Part shown: positions 4,892 through 40,139 of the stretch, one piece after another
Layout of the letters: every line of letters starts with the position of its first letter
Numbering within the stretch: position 1 is the stretch's first letter
Source of the DNA: Candidatus Jorgensenbacteria bacterium
GTDB taxonomy: Bacteria > Patescibacteriota > Minisyncoccia > UBA6257 > GWB1-50-10
Direction of reading: 5' to 3'
Assembly: GCA_030648515.1 (NCBI GenBank)
Contig: JAUSHK010000001.1
Coordinates: 73,688 to 123,922, forward strand
Length of the DNA stretch: 50,235 bases
The notes under the pieces: generated by a model
What the model was told of the DNA's origin: nothing
Seen by the model: only the letters and a program-made list of their open reading frames with translations
Databases searched by the model: none
Made by a program: the position numbers and the translations under genes

Positions 4892-5776
4892 TTAAATTAT
4901 TTTTATTGCGCGAAGTTTTGCCGATCTGCTTCTGGGATTCTCCCTCCGCTCGGCAAGCGATGGGACAATAGGTTTTTTTGTAATAAATTCTGCCTTGCCC
5001 GCTTTCGCGAGATCGCGAAACGCGTTCTTAACAATCCTGTCCTCAAGCGAATGGAATGAGATTATCGCCACTCTGCCGCCGCTTTTTGTGATTTCTGGGA
5101 TTGCTCCGAGCAGGCGCTCAAGATGCTCAAACTCGCTATTCACAAAAATTCGCAGCGCCTGGAATGTCCGCGTCGCTGGATCGGTCCGGCCCCTCACGAA
5201 AACCGCGCGGCGTACAATATCGGCAAGTTCAAGCGTCCGGGTAATTCGCTTGCGTTTCCGTTCTACAACAATTCCATGCGCAATTTGATCCGCAAATCGC
5301 TCCTCGCCAAATACTCTTAAAATCTCAGCAATCCTTCTTTCCGGAAGCGAGTTCACGATTTCCGCCGCTGATATTCCGGTACTTGCGTCGTATCTCATGT
5401 CGAGCGGACCGTCATACTTGAAACTGAATCCGCGCTCGGCATCATCAACGTGCATTGATGAAAATCCTAAATCAAGGAGCAGCCCGTCGATTTTTTGCAG
5501 CCGTTCACGTTTCAAAATTTCCGGAATCTCATCGTAGCTCGCGTGAATCAGTTTTATGTTCGGCGCGACGGCAAACTTTTCCTTAAGTGAGGCGACCGCA
5601 TTCTGATCGACGTCTATTCCAATAAGAGTCCCGCGCGGAGAAACGCGTTTCAAAATTTCCGTCGCGTGTCCCCCGCCTCCGGCTGTTCCGTCAACAAAAA
5701 ATTCTCCGGGTATAGGATTCAGCACCCGCATAACTTCGTGTAAAAGAACTGGTATATGATTCGAATTACGAATCAT
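4892..5776 (-). CDS. rsmH: 16S rRNA (cytosine-1402-N4) methyltransferase
   Basis: 'HIPVLLHEVMRVLNP...FVDGTAGGGGHATEIL', 'DGLLLDLGFSSMHVDDAERGFSF', 'IISFHSLEDRIVKNAF'. Confidence 0.96.
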   Translation of the reverse strand: MIRNSNHIPVLLHEVMRVLNPIPGEFFVDGTAGGGGHATEILKRVSPRGTLIGIDVDQNAVASLKEKFAVAPNIKLIHASYDEIPEILKRERLQKIDGLLLDLGFSSMHVDDAERGFSFKYDGPLDMRYDASTGISAAEIVNSLPERRIAEILRVFGEERFADQIAHGIVVERKRKRITRTLELADIVRRAVFVRGRTDPATRTFQALRIFVNSEFEHLERLLGAIPEITKSGGRVAIISFHSLEDRIVKNAFRDLAKAGKAEFITKKPIVPSLAERRENPRSRSAKLRAIKII

Positions 5777-20579: not shown

Positions 20580-22448
20580 CTAACGACTTTTAAGTCTGTT
20601 TTGATAGTACCACATGAGAACATCCCTGGCTACTGGAATGGTGTTTGCGCTCCCCTCGCGGGAGTTTTCAATAAGAACAAGGATTGCAATTTGCGGATTA
20701 TCCGCCGGCGCGAATCCGACAAAAAACGCATTGGTTTTCGTGTTATTTTCAACCTGCGCTGAACCAGTTTTTGCGGCAATTTCCATCGGGATGCTGTTCA
20801 AGAGATGCGCGGTTCCGTACGGCTCGCGTACAGCGTCCCGCATACCCTTATGAACGTACGAAATAATGTCCTGAATGTCGTTTCGTAAATCACGAAGAAC
20901 TACTGGCTGTGTTTCCTGGGAAACGGTCGATGAGGAATGCGCGGCATCTTCAATACTCTTTACGATGCGTGGCTTGTATATAGTACCGCCGTTCGCAATC
21001 GTGCTGATGTAATCAATGAGTCCTATCGGCGTGATTGAAAAATCGCCCTGCCCTATCGTGACGTTATACGTGTCTCCCAGCCTCCACGGCTGGCCGGTCG
21101 CTTTCTTTTTCCAATCCGGATCAGGCAAAAATCCAGTCGTCTCTCCTGGAAGATCAATATTTGTTTTTCCGCCAAGGTTGAATTTCTCCCACCATTTTTT
21201 AAGCAAGGTAATGCCCAGACCCTTTTGGTCACCGAATCCGCCGCCGACCGTGTAGAAATAGACATTGCTTGATTTCGCAAGTGCCGCAGCAAGATCAACC
21301 CAGCCCTGCGGCCTCCAGTCCAAAAATCTGCTCGGCGCATCGGGATTATACGGATTCGGAACGTCAATATACCCGGCTGAATAAATCTGTTTGTCAGGAG
21401 AAATAATTCCCTCGGAGAGTGCCGCTGATGCAACGAGTGGTTTTATAGTTGAGCCTGGATTATACTTCCCGCCGACAGCACGGTTAAATAGCGCTTGATT
21501 TTTTGAATTTAAAAAATCCGAAACGTTGTTTGCGTCAAATCCGGGAATCCCGACCATCGCAAGCACCTCGCCGTTCTGCGGATTCATCGCAATACCAACA
21601 CCGACATCACGACCCAAACTTTTGAGCGCTTGGTTAAGCCGGTTATAGAAAAATTCCTGGAGGTCGCGGTCTATATATGTGTTAATGGTACGCCCTGGCT
21701 TTGAATCATGCACTATGCGAGTATCCTGCATTTTTCCGAGCGCATTTTTAAACGTCGTATCTTCGCCGTTCGTGCCACGAAGGACATCATCGTAATATGC
21801 TTCAAGTCCGGCGCGCCCGATTTCGTCATCCATCACGAGCGTCGTGTCACGCTTTAAGTCGTCTGCATTCACAAGCCCCGTGTATCCGATGAGGTGCGAG
21901 AAAACGAGCGGCTCTTCCTGTACGCGCTTAAAACCGGCTTCAACAGTAACACCTGGCAAGCGCTCGGATGAAAGCGCGACAAGCTCTTCCTGAGAAAGAT
22001 CGGCTTGGAGCAAAATGCGGTCAGAGATCTGCCAATCGCGGTTTGTAATGTGTGCGGCAAGCTCCGTAATGTCGGCGTGTGTAAGCTCGGCAACACGCGT
22101 AAGGATTATGAGGCGCCCTTCGGACTCGCGCGGAAGCAGACGAGGAAGAAGATAGGCATTGAACGAGTGGTCATTTTGAACGAGCGGTTTGCCATATCGG
22201 TCCTGAATTATGCCGCGCGGGGCTGGAGTAACAACTGTGTCGCTGATATTCTGGAGCGCCCGGTCAGCGTAAAAACCGTGACGCACAGTGCTGAGATAAA
22301 GAAACTGCAAAAAAACAGCTCCAACCACGATAAATGCGACCGAGAGAAGAATAATAAAAACGCGCCGCTTGACCGGCACTTCGCGCACATCTTCTTTAAG
22401 AATGTGGTCAGCGAGAATATTCTCGATGGTAAGACGTGGATGTTGCAT
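20580..22448 (-). CDS. mrdA: penicillin-binding protein 2 (elongation transpeptidase)
   Basis: 'YNPGSTIKPLVASAAL', 'KSSNVYFYTVGGGFGDQKGLG', 'AAKTGSAQ'; start likely MQHPRLTIEN (22448), since the upstream ORF extension is repeat-derived. Confidence 0.92.
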   Translation of the reverse strand: MQHPRLTIENILADHILKEDVREVPVKRRVFIILLSVAFIVVGAVFLQFLYLSTVRHGFYADRALQNISDTVVTPAPRGIIQDRYGKPLVQNDHSFNAYLLPRLLPRESEGRLIILTRVAELTHADITELAAHITNRDWQISDRILLQADLSQEELVALSSERLPGVTVEAGFKRVQEEPLVFSHLIGYTGLVNADDLKRDTTLVMDDEIGRAGLEAYYDDVLRGTNGEDTTFKNALGKMQDTRIVHDSKPGRTINTYIDRDLQEFFYNRLNQALKSLGRDVGVGIAMNPQNGEVLAMVGIPGFDANNVSDFLNSKNQALFNRAVGGKYNPGSTIKPLVASAALSEGIISPDKQIYSAGYIDVPNPYNPDAPSRFLDWRPQGWVDLAAALAKSSNVYFYTVGGGFGDQKGLGITLLKKWWEKFNLGGKTNIDLPGETTGFLPDPDWKKKATGQPWRLGDTYNVTIGQGDFSITPIGLIDYISTIANGGTIYKPRIVKSIEDAAHSSSTVSQETQPVVLRDLRNDIQDIISYVHKGMRDAVREPYGTAHLLNSIPMEIAAKTGSAQVENNTKTNAFFVGFAPADNPQIAILVLIENSREGSANTIPVARDVLMWYYQNRLKSR

Positions 22449-37522: not shown

Positions 37523-38920
37523 TTATTTAAACTTTTCTATTTCTTCCTCTTCTCCAAAAATCGACAATCCCGCGGACGGACCCGCTTTCTTGCTTTCGGT
37601 GCGTTTCATATGAGGAGCGGTGAGCACGAACGACGTGGGCGGATGGAAAATAGTCGCTATCCCTTCCACATTCATAATGAAACGCTTAGAAGAAAAATTA
37701 TAATGGAAAAAGTAAGACGTGAGTATTCGCCCCATCGTTGTTTCAGGCAATATTTTGCGTTTCCTTATGTTATAGAGAAATTGATTTTCACGATATTCAG
37801 TGCGTATCTTTGAAAAAATCGTATGGGAAAGCGACATCCTCTTTTTAATTGCCGTTGCGGCCAATGAATTTTGTTTAAACGCGTTTAAATGCAAAGTTCC
37901 ATACTGGTTAAAAACGTTTGCGAGAGCGCCTTTTGCAAACCCGTTTGAATAGATCTCTAAAGGAGCTACGTATAAAACGCGTATCAAAGTATAAAAAGCC
38001 GGCTTTGAAATATTTTTTTCAACCGCCTCGAGTACTTCTGTCTGTCCGGGAGTTCGAAGCACAGGAATGCTTTTCTTCCCCTCGCCCTTCCCGACTTCAG
38101 TTATTGCCGGAGTTTGGAGTTTATCAAGCACCTTTTTTTCCCCGTCTTTCCAGTCCTTGCTTGCTGGCTGGATGATAATTTGGAAGCATACCATCTCCCC
38201 TCTCTTTATCTTTGAAAGCATCTCGAGCGTCGTCGAAATCGGGTCAACTTGTATCGCTTCCTCGGGATTTTCAAAATTGGTATACGTTTTTATTGGATAT
38301 GCCGATTCACGCGCAAGTATTATTTCCGTTCCCCAAATATCAAGCCCGCGCTCGCGCATTTCAACTGTATCGCGCGGAAAATTGCTCATATAGTCATCCG
38401 CTTCGATGATTTCAACATCGGGATAGTAAGAAAAGAATGCCGCTTCAACAGCATTCTTGTGCTTATCTGAAACCCTCACATAAAAATGGATTTCCCCGCC
38501 AAAACTCGCAACCTCGAGCGAAGACCATAAAACCATCTGCCCATCCCAATACGTTTCATAAGCATTGTCTGCCGCATTTCTCAATGAATTGAACGTAAGA
38601 AGAACTTGTTCCATCGCCCTCGGGCTTTTTTCAATTTCGCGCGGAACCCGCAGCTCAAGCGTCACCCAATTTATTTTATTTTCAAACATCGTCTGTCTGA
38701 CATATAACATGAGCTCCCGGAAAAGCAGGAAAAGAGGGAAGAATATCCAAAACCACCAAGTGTGCGCGATGAAACTCCAAAAAAGCGGTGGGAAGCTGTC
38801 GACGGCTATGAGCGGGATGGTAATCGCCCCCGCGACAAAAAGCAGAATTATCCACGCTTCTTCTTTTTTTACGAAATCTATGAAGAGACTGCCTATTTCT
38901 TCAGAAAGTTTTTTTAGCAT
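37523..38920 (-). CDS. large membrane-anchored protein of unknown function
   Basis: Two N-terminal TM spans, long soluble region; 4 nt upstream of the HEPN-like gene. Confidence 0.65.
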   Translation of the reverse strand: MLKKLSEEIGSLFIDFVKKEEAWIILLFVAGAITIPLIAVDSFPPLFWSFIAHTWWFWIFFPLFLLFRELMLYVRQTMFENKINWVTLELRVPREIEKSPRAMEQVLLTFNSLRNAADNAYETYWDGQMVLWSSLEVASFGGEIHFYVRVSDKHKNAVEAAFFSYYPDVEIIEADDYMSNFPRDTVEMRERGLDIWGTEIILARESAYPIKTYTNFENPEEAIQVDPISTTLEMLSKIKRGEMVCFQIIIQPASKDWKDGEKKVLDKLQTPAITEVGKGEGKKSIPVLRTPGQTEVLEAVEKNISKPAFYTLIRVLYVAPLEIYSNGFAKGALANVFNQYGTLHLNAFKQNSLAATAIKKRMSLSHTIFSKIRTEYRENQFLYNIRKRKILPETTMGRILTSYFFHYNFSSKRFIMNVEGIATIFHPPTSFVLTAPHMKRTESKKAGPSAGLSIFGEEEEIEKFK

Positions 38921-38921
38921 A

Positions 38922-39052
38922 CCCAGTAGTGAGAACTCGAGTCATACTCCGACGTTTTGCTATGAATCAATGTCATGGTTAGTGTTAGGGCGGTTATTGA
39001 ATGCCCAGGAAAAACTTATCTACAAACAGACGCTCGAGTTTCTACTACTGGG
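38922..39052. repeat. 131-bp element bounded by 20-bp inverted repeats, flanked by CATA on both sides
   Basis: CCCAGTAGTGAGAACTCGAG ... CTCGAGTTTCTACTACTGGG (17/20); left CATA 38918-38921, right CATA 39053-39056. Confidence 0.7.
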
Positions 39053-39060
39053 CATAACGA

Positions 39061-39091
39061 TAATGGGGTACGTATGTAACGTACCCCATTA
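39061..39091 (-). promoter_or_regulatory. 13-bp-stem palindrome over the predicted TSS of the 38920-35006 operon
   Basis: TAATGGGGTACGT-ATGTA-ACGTACCCCATTA. Confidence 0.6.
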
Positions 39092-39119
39092 GTATAGCGT
39101 GTCACAAGTTCTAGGACAA
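39091..39119 (-). promoter_or_regulatory. candidate promoter TTGTCC-17-TATACT
   Basis: Minus strand TTGTCCTAGAACTTGTGACACGCTATACT. Confidence 0.5.
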
Positions 39120-40139
39120 TTATGCTTCAAGAATATGATACTTTCCATCGTCGAGCCGCTTGAAATCCTTGCGGTTCTGGAGGCTGAGTAAAATGGTATT
39201 CTCTTTGAGTAGGCGCTGTTCATTTACCATCTTCACAACATCCTGCGGTTTAAGCGGACCATGCTTTTTAAGAAGCCGCACAATGACCTCGCGCACAGTG
39301 CCCGGCTCATATCCGTGTTCGCGGAGCGCATAAATACCGCGACCAACAAGTACGAAACGATCATCTTTGATAAGCTCATTGTGTACCGTCTGAATGTGCG
39401 CCGGCTTCACGTCAATCCCATAGGTCGAGATAAACTTCGCAATGTTCTCAAAGTGAAGCGGTTTATTATGTTTCTTTAAAACAAGGTATGCCTTATCACG
39501 AATGGTTTTCGGCTCAATTTCTGGCCACGCTTTGAGCCCGAAGTCGCCGAATACATTCTTGCCAAAGTGCTTTGAAATAGTGAGAAAGTGCTGCGATGCA
39601 AGATCAGGAAATTCTTTGAGGTGCTTTTTCTGAATAAGGATGCCGTCTTTGTCGCTTGTCTTGAAAAACTTCACAACGCGCCGCACAAAGTCAGAAAGCT
39701 TCTGCTTCGACTTGTCGTCGGAATACCAATAAGCATGCATGTCATCGTTTTCTTTTTCATAGCGCGGAGCGCCGCCTATCAAAAAGATGAAAGCGAGTTT
39801 CCGCGGCGCATAACGCGTTGAGCCCTTGCCAAGGAACTTCTGTTCCATGTCGCTCATAAATTCCTCATCTCGGCGCGCACCGCCAGCGCTTTCAAGGTAC
39901 ACAGCCGCGCCATTAATAAGCGAAGCGGCAGCCTCCTTAACCTGCGGCGTAAGCCGCTTGATTGCGCTTTCTTCAATCTGGCGCACCCGTTCGCGGGTAA
40001 TACCGAATTCATCCCCGATTTCCTGAAGCGTTGCTCGCTTTCCATCCTTAAGTCCAAAGCGACCAGTAATAACCCGCTTTTGTTTCGGGCTGAAATCTTC
40101 CAGGAATTTCGCGATGAGTTGCTCAAGGTTAAAAATCAT
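39120..40139 (-). CDS. sigma-70 region 4-like HTH fused to HARE-HTH-like domain
   Basis: 'FSPKQKRVITGRFGLKDGKRATLQEIGDEFGITRERVRQIEESAIKRL'; later 'KAYLVLKKHNKPLHFENIAKFISTYGIDVKPAHIQTVHNELIKDDRFVLVGRGIYAL'. Confidence 0.8.
   Translation of the reverse strand: MIFNLEQLIAKFLEDFSPKQKRVITGRFGLKDGKRATLQEIGDEFGITRERVRQIEESAIKRLTPQVKEAAASLINGAAVYLESAGGARRDEEFMSDMEQKFLGKGSTRYAPRKLAFIFLIGGAPRYEKENDDMHAYWYSDDKSKQKLSDFVRRVVKFFKTSDKDGILIQKKHLKEFPDLASQHFLTISKHFGKNVFGDFGLKAWPEIEPKTIRDKAYLVLKKHNKPLHFENIAKFISTYGIDVKPAHIQTVHNELIKDDRFVLVGRGIYALREHGYEPGTVREVIVRLLKKHGPLKPQDVVKMVNEQRLLKENTILLSLQNRKDFKRLDDGKYHILEA

Follow-up and report, generated by a model that had tools for sequence, protein, structure and literature searches.

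A gene for a 465-aa protein in a Candidatus Jorgensenbacteria genome begins directly at the edge of a long inverted repeat, which raises the question of what this repeat is and how it came to lie against an initiation codon. The repeat occupies positions 38922 to 39052 of the 50,235-nucleotide stretch of DNA that was analysed (the window), and a base-by-base check confirmed the architecture given in the original prediction, namely a 131-bp inverted repeat abutting an ATG, with 20-nt arms complementary at 17 of 20 positions, 91 nt between them and an exact CATA at both flanks. The left CATA (38918 to 38921, no strand assigned) contains the start codon of the minus-strand gene (37523 to 38920), whose ATG is the CAT at 38918 to 38920, while the right CATA (also unstranded) lies at 39053 to 39056. 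On the plus strand, the element runs from an A end with a GTAGTGA-type arm (38922 to 38941, plus strand, CCCAGTAGTGAGAACTCGAG; family consensus CCCAGTAGTGAAAACTCGAT) to a B end with a GTAGTAG-type arm (39033 to 39052, minus strand, CTCGAGTTTCTACTACTGGG; family consensus read inward CCCAGTAGTAGAAACTCGAT). The unstranded interior (38942 to 39032) is without a long ORF and is unlike the interiors of the other copies described below. The start codon of the 465-aa gene is supported by 29 orthologues of roughly 43 to 52% identity, with most alignments beginning at residue 1; the gene is conserved in the family and has no Pfam match. Between the element and the upstream gene, a perfect 13-bp hairpin (TAATGGGGTACGT/ACGTACCCCATTA; 39061 to 39091, no strand) lies outside the element and belongs to the ancestral 5' region, and a candidate promoter of the 465-aa gene (39091 to 39119, minus strand; TTGTCC, 17-nt spacer, TATACT) is predicted from consensus matches. 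At many of the orthologous loci, a box resembling TATAAT or TACAAT precedes the ATG at a short distance. The neighbouring minus-strand gene (39120 to 40139) encodes a sigma-70 region 4 domain joined to a HARE-HTH domain.

The element is the sole 20-nt inverted repeat in the whole window with at least 17 of 20 paired positions and a spacer of 60 to 150 nt, five shuffled windows contained none, and its minus-strand fold reaches −43.4 kcal/mol (z = −3.55 relative to 200 dinucleotide shuffles). It is present once in its own genome (690.8 kb in 5 contigs), which is what a chance palindrome unique to this locus would show, but such an origin is practically untenable in view of the exact 4-bp duplication and the near-identical arms in 13 genomes of the order. 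Specifically, of 244 genomes from the same CPR (Parcubacteria-type) order, 13 contain the 18-mer arm CCAGTAGTRRAAACTCGA, and a reversed-pattern control gave 0. The search for further copies therefore came up empty in the window's own genome and succeeded in its relatives, in which the same arms bound at least 55 non-redundant copies; the genome G037 has 26 paired copies. In a DNA search of 99 relatives, the arms were matched and the interior was not, with the arm pairs lying about 105 to 130 bp apart in many dispersed places and in sister genera. The arm is nearly missing from the rest of the class, where a 15-mer was matched in 4 of 384 genomes, and one genome outside the order (G501) has a 132-bp copy with TATG duplications. 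Paired arms in named records include those of Jorgensenbacteria, one Brennerbacteria MAG and further Patescibacteria MAGs. The arm 18-mer was absent from IMG/VR, and neither the arms nor the short copy were matched in virus, plasmid and phage collections. Partnerless 18-mer matches occur in Streptomyces and other actinobacteria (L085, L091, L097, L124, L128, L130, L131, L135 and others) and are probably unrelated coding sequence. All of the genomes compared are draft MAGs with fragmented contigs. From these results, we conclude that the window element belongs to a family of tiny mobile elements found in this CPR order.

Every clearly oriented full copy has two non-identical ends, one GTAGTGAAAAC (A) and one GTAGTAGAAAC (B), and as a consequence of this difference the family stem keeps an invariant G-U plus A-C step. 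The rest of the arms covary, with 98.9% of cells paired and 8 pairs changed on both sides, compared to a mean of 2.4 both-side changes in shuffled controls, in which 0 of 500 shuffles reached 8. Covariation had been suggested as a check, and although the arms do covary, the same is expected of paired transposon ends, so that covariation alone is not proof of an RNA role. Copies are usually 119 to 148 bp long, with a short form of 59 to 71 bp, and their interiors are unrelated between genera. The target duplications are mostly 4 bp and sometimes 3 bp, with TATG, CATG, CATA, TTGA, TCAA and CAGG among the examples. Empty sites, which the original prediction had proposed to look for in relatives, were found in G011, a sister of G037 from the same genus: six sites that are occupied in G037 are contiguous in G011 and hold a single target copy. 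Examples are GGATTGACTTTT at the site of the TTGA copy and, for L233:4694, an alignment that crosses the junction over 136 nt with no gap. The proposal of a MITE-like element with CATA as its target duplication is thus backed by many copies, duplications and empty sites. For the window itself, the corresponding evidence consists of the 29 element-free orthologous loci, at roughly 43 to 52% protein identity, where arm matches are not above chance (85 loose matches vs 95 in shuffled sequence).

Contact with a start codon is frequent in the family. Counting any ORF of at least 60 codons that starts inside or at the duplication, 25 of the 55 copies coincide exactly with a start codon, which is found at the B end alone in 20, at the A end alone in 4 and at both ends in 1 (p = 0.0015; simple ORF calls, for orientation as well). 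The original claim that the closing stem ends at the initiation codon holds for the window and is true of nearly half of the family. The window copy is among the 4 whose A end faces the gene, and so has the rarer orientation. Starts within 60 nt show the same tendency (29 at the B end, 7 at the A end, 13 at both and 6 with none; p = 0.0003), and in two more copies, found at contig ends, it is likewise the B end that faces the gene at whose start the element lies, namely gap (MTKIAINGFGRIG...) in one case and another ORF in the other. As a rough background based on naive gene calls, start-containing windows make up ~0.9% of tolerated 4-mers and 22% of NATG targets in G037. A −10-like hexamer (at least 5 of 6 matches, 3 to 15 nt upstream) accompanies 12 of 21 start-codon sites and 97 of 365 control starts (27%; p = 0.004, with composition unmatched). 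Most simply, a compact genome would suffer no harm from a 4-bp duplication over a start codon, since an ATG remains on each half. The orientation bias requires either target asymmetry or selection on the leader. Translational bypass, or read-through of the whole leader, was rejected, as every uORF from the duplicated ATG of a normal-length copy stops within the element.

A 5'-leader position, an orientation bias and a covarying stem that ends at the AUG are also what would be expected of a leader RNA that acts in cis to regulate translation of the downstream gene and was spread by duplication. We consider this very improbable, as it sits poorly with the target duplications, the empty sites, the unrelated interiors and the copies found at stop codons and inside genes. 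The genes behind the copies, named by eye from their N-termini, include Obg, GAPDH, LeuS, ribosomal protein S17, prepilin and others, and have no common function; an Rfam scan of the window locus returned no match. On these points, the earlier suggestion of a riboswitch-like cis-RNA or small RNA is not supported, and neither a conserved interior or aptamer nor a coherent gene set was found. A regulatory effect may still arise as a by-product of insertion.

Insertions within genes can be read in frame. The atpA gene of G037 holds an in-frame 60-bp copy with an AAA duplication and the insert SKPSSENSIGEHADRHRVSTTGK (L207:834-893, same site as L136:834-893), and in comparison with solved AtpA chains, the G037 protein has a 23-residue insert, with the best chain placing 3 residues opposite 28 unaligned query residues. 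The prepilin peptidase site has received three independent insertions (L099:4175, L051:12768 and L076:1500), each with an in-frame ATG inside the element and a B arm that reads RVSTTG or QVSTTG. At the junctions (MNQGHKIKENLISRVSTTG-QALVE..., MLKKYKQLFTQHQVSTTG-FTLVE... and MNKKNQKGSFWIILKGVLQEDRVSTTG-FTLIE...), the arm lies directly before the F/Q and the hydrophobic pilin start; at these three prepilins, the arm supplies a new leader peptide, which amounts to a signal peptide donated by a mobile element. Two further prepilins have a lone A arm that reads RVFTTG-FTLVE (L116 near 6602 and L122 near 5508), possibly as old domesticated ends.

The element is short, is without a transposase ORF and has terminal inverted repeats as well as a target duplication, with empty sites known for its sister copies, all of which are characteristic of MITEs. 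It could be regarded as part of an ordinary MITE family whose conventional transposase is absent from the sampled MAGs and some of whose longer members carry a GIY-YIG ORF as cargo. In favour of this, several DDE families make duplications of this length, MITEs usually derive from IS elements, and fragmented MAGs could conceal a larger autonomous element. However, none of the transposase profiles searched (PF13701, PF01609 and PF00665) gave anything linked to the arms: the IS1380 transposase PF13701 was found in none of 30 genomes, and PF01609 and PF00665 produced unlinked matches only. The DDE matches of G042 are contig-end fragments with AAGCTC ends unlike the family arms, the IS481-like gene of G037 is without family arms, and no DDE transposase ORF, as a DDE insertion sequence would have, was seen between the ends. 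Y1 transposases were also discarded as the mover, as their genes occur both with and without the element in a distribution that does not follow it. Furthermore, among arm-bounded elements of up to 4 kb in the fetched sequence, the wider-than-usual facing arm pairs all span a GIY-YIG ORF or its remnant, except for one 286-bp copy without a recognisable ORF (L021). The putative parents with the same ends encode GIY-YIG and no known transposase, and we consider an ordinary MITE family unlikely.

The remnant in question lies in G037, where rearranged halves of a GIY-YIG gene were found within a 306-bp arm-bounded stretch, which led to a search for GIY-YIG genes. In 4 of the 30 GIY-YIG loci read, the same arms closely bracket a complete ORF of 85 to 90 aa, forming elements of 288 to 323 bp that are putative autonomous parents of the family. 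Two of these have perfect CATA duplications (L332, 1423 to 1745, and L340, 1195 to 1499), and the other two have partial ones (L330, 1434 to 1742, TTTA/CTTA; L336, 1466 to 1753, AAAA/AAAG). In L340, the reading frame of the ORF extends without a stop to the duplicated host ATG (M-PSTTTSMMRFYYVYVLES...). Two more cases from the profile search are known by coordinates only, one with the ORF ending at 22131 and an arm at 22143 (G026:C30) and the other with an arm extending to 5141 and the ORF starting at 5143 (G088:C33). The GIY-YIG proteins of the elements score 57.6 to 67.4 bits against the Pfam GIY-YIG model (cut-off 22.6) with R26 and E62 invariant, and together with the G037 remnant the arm-bracketed nucleases form one clade (96/96) apart from GIY-YIG genes without such arms. 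All five of the arm-bounded genes (L330, L332, L336, L340 and L175) also have an inner inverted repeat that pairs the GIY-YIG start codon with the EHNxG codons, with 13 bp at best and the weakest pairing in L340; it is absent from 18 GIY-YIG genes that lack arms and could hide the start codon. The parent ORF runs from A to B in one element, as well as in the G037 remnant, and from B to A in two. At L175 (2206 to 2573), nested or tandem copies surround a GIY-YIG gene that is split into an inverted arrangement. Separately, a GIY-YIG gene of G011 lies between the arms of another inverted repeat, perfect over 20 bp (L319:1438-1729; CCCCCCACCACTTTTGATGT), a possible sister element type, and the architecture may thus be wider than this family. 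A GIY-YIG profile had no match among virus contigs.

Overall, the window feature is probably a non-autonomous (MITE-type) derivative of a minimal GIY-YIG mobile element, and we infer from sequence that the GIY-YIG protein is the mobilising enzyme. The parent form, of about 290 to 325 bp, would consist of an arm, a single ORF for an 85- to 90-aa GIY-YIG nuclease and a second arm. Nuclease made by a parent copy elsewhere would recognise the arms, whether these form duplex ends or an extruded hairpin, and would move both parents and, in trans, short copies to new sites, cutting the target and the ends with a 4-nt stagger that would leave the 3 to 4 bp target duplication. Sites that lie between promoter and start codon would be preferred, since after the duplication each side still has a complete start codon, such that the ATG of the host gene is retained and the host promoter transcribes the element. 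The window copy would have landed on the TATG at the start of the 465-aa gene with its A end toward the gene and become an mRNA leader. The stems of bacterial 23S intervening sequences are removed by RNase III, and a similar removal might apply to the stem of the 131-nt leader, whose host gene presumably stays expressed. No element-type GIY-YIG gene was found in the window genome (best match 1.2e-18), so that the window copy appears to be a stranded relic that is probably immobile now. The interiors of short copies contained no visible GIY-YIG remnant, so that their origin by direct internal deletion would be hypothetical. Duplications of 4 bp are not known from GIY-YIG homing enzymes, and the protein could therefore be a passenger, with an unsampled transposase as the real mover.

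The best-known MITE families duplicate a TA target, whereas the duplications here are 3 to 4 bp, the placement at start codons is strong and the full-length relatives found encode a GIY-YIG nuclease only. In other respects, bacterial MITEs such as Correia/NEMIS, ERIC, RUP and BOX are alike, being short, with terminal inverted repeats, target duplications and many copies, mostly intergenic and able to add promoters or ORFs to genes (PMC10969869). As described in the same summary of Ogata 2000 and 2002 (PMC10969869), Rickettsia palindromic elements of ~100 to 150 bp insert in frame into protein-coding genes of small genomes, which AtpA and the three prepilins have in common with them; in this likeness, which is one of description only, the present family differs in that leaders hold most copies and that a candidate for the mobilising gene can be seen. 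REP/RAYT systems are similarly built on short palindromes tagged with GTAG (PMC3733652), a motif that the family arms contain, whereas here the two arms terminate a single element and are not separate hairpins, and the family has target duplications in place of the duplication-free, Y1-mediated mobilisation of REPs. A 2024 survey of CPR rRNA genes found that every GIY-YIG protein there is encoded in an insertion of a kind other than group I or group II introns, that short ORF-less rRNA insertions also occur, and that the GIY-YIG insertions are said to lie outside spread by homing (PMC11270868). Those insertions likewise place a small GIY-YIG ORF on something other than a group I or II intron. 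In contrast to them and to GIY-YIG homing genes, which home to allelic sites without duplication, the family has duplications, many unrelated chromosomal sites and non-autonomous derivatives, as well as matched inverted ends, which the rRNA insertions might share. Our literature search, for which most subscription journals and preprints were outside the scope, found no paper on inverted-repeat elements with a lone GIY-YIG gene and none on Patescibacteria MITEs, and priority is uncertain.

The ~300-letter members may represent a type of minimal transposon that has not been described before. More tentatively, they could define a new prokaryotic transposon class of ~300 bp, in which the sole protein, a single-domain GIY-YIG nuclease, acts as the transposase, 3 to 4 bp duplications are made, insertion at promoter-proximal start codons places expression under host promoters (once starting in frame at the duplicated ATG) and many non-autonomous copies arise, including that of the window. 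If the GIY-YIG protein is indeed the mover, these elements would rank with the smallest autonomous transposons and bring a further enzyme type to the transposases, and they could help to explain both the many small GIY-YIG genes of CPR genomes and the non-intron GIY-YIG insertions in their rRNA genes. Placement at start codons with a target duplication would offer such elements a way into a compact genome without breaking its genes.
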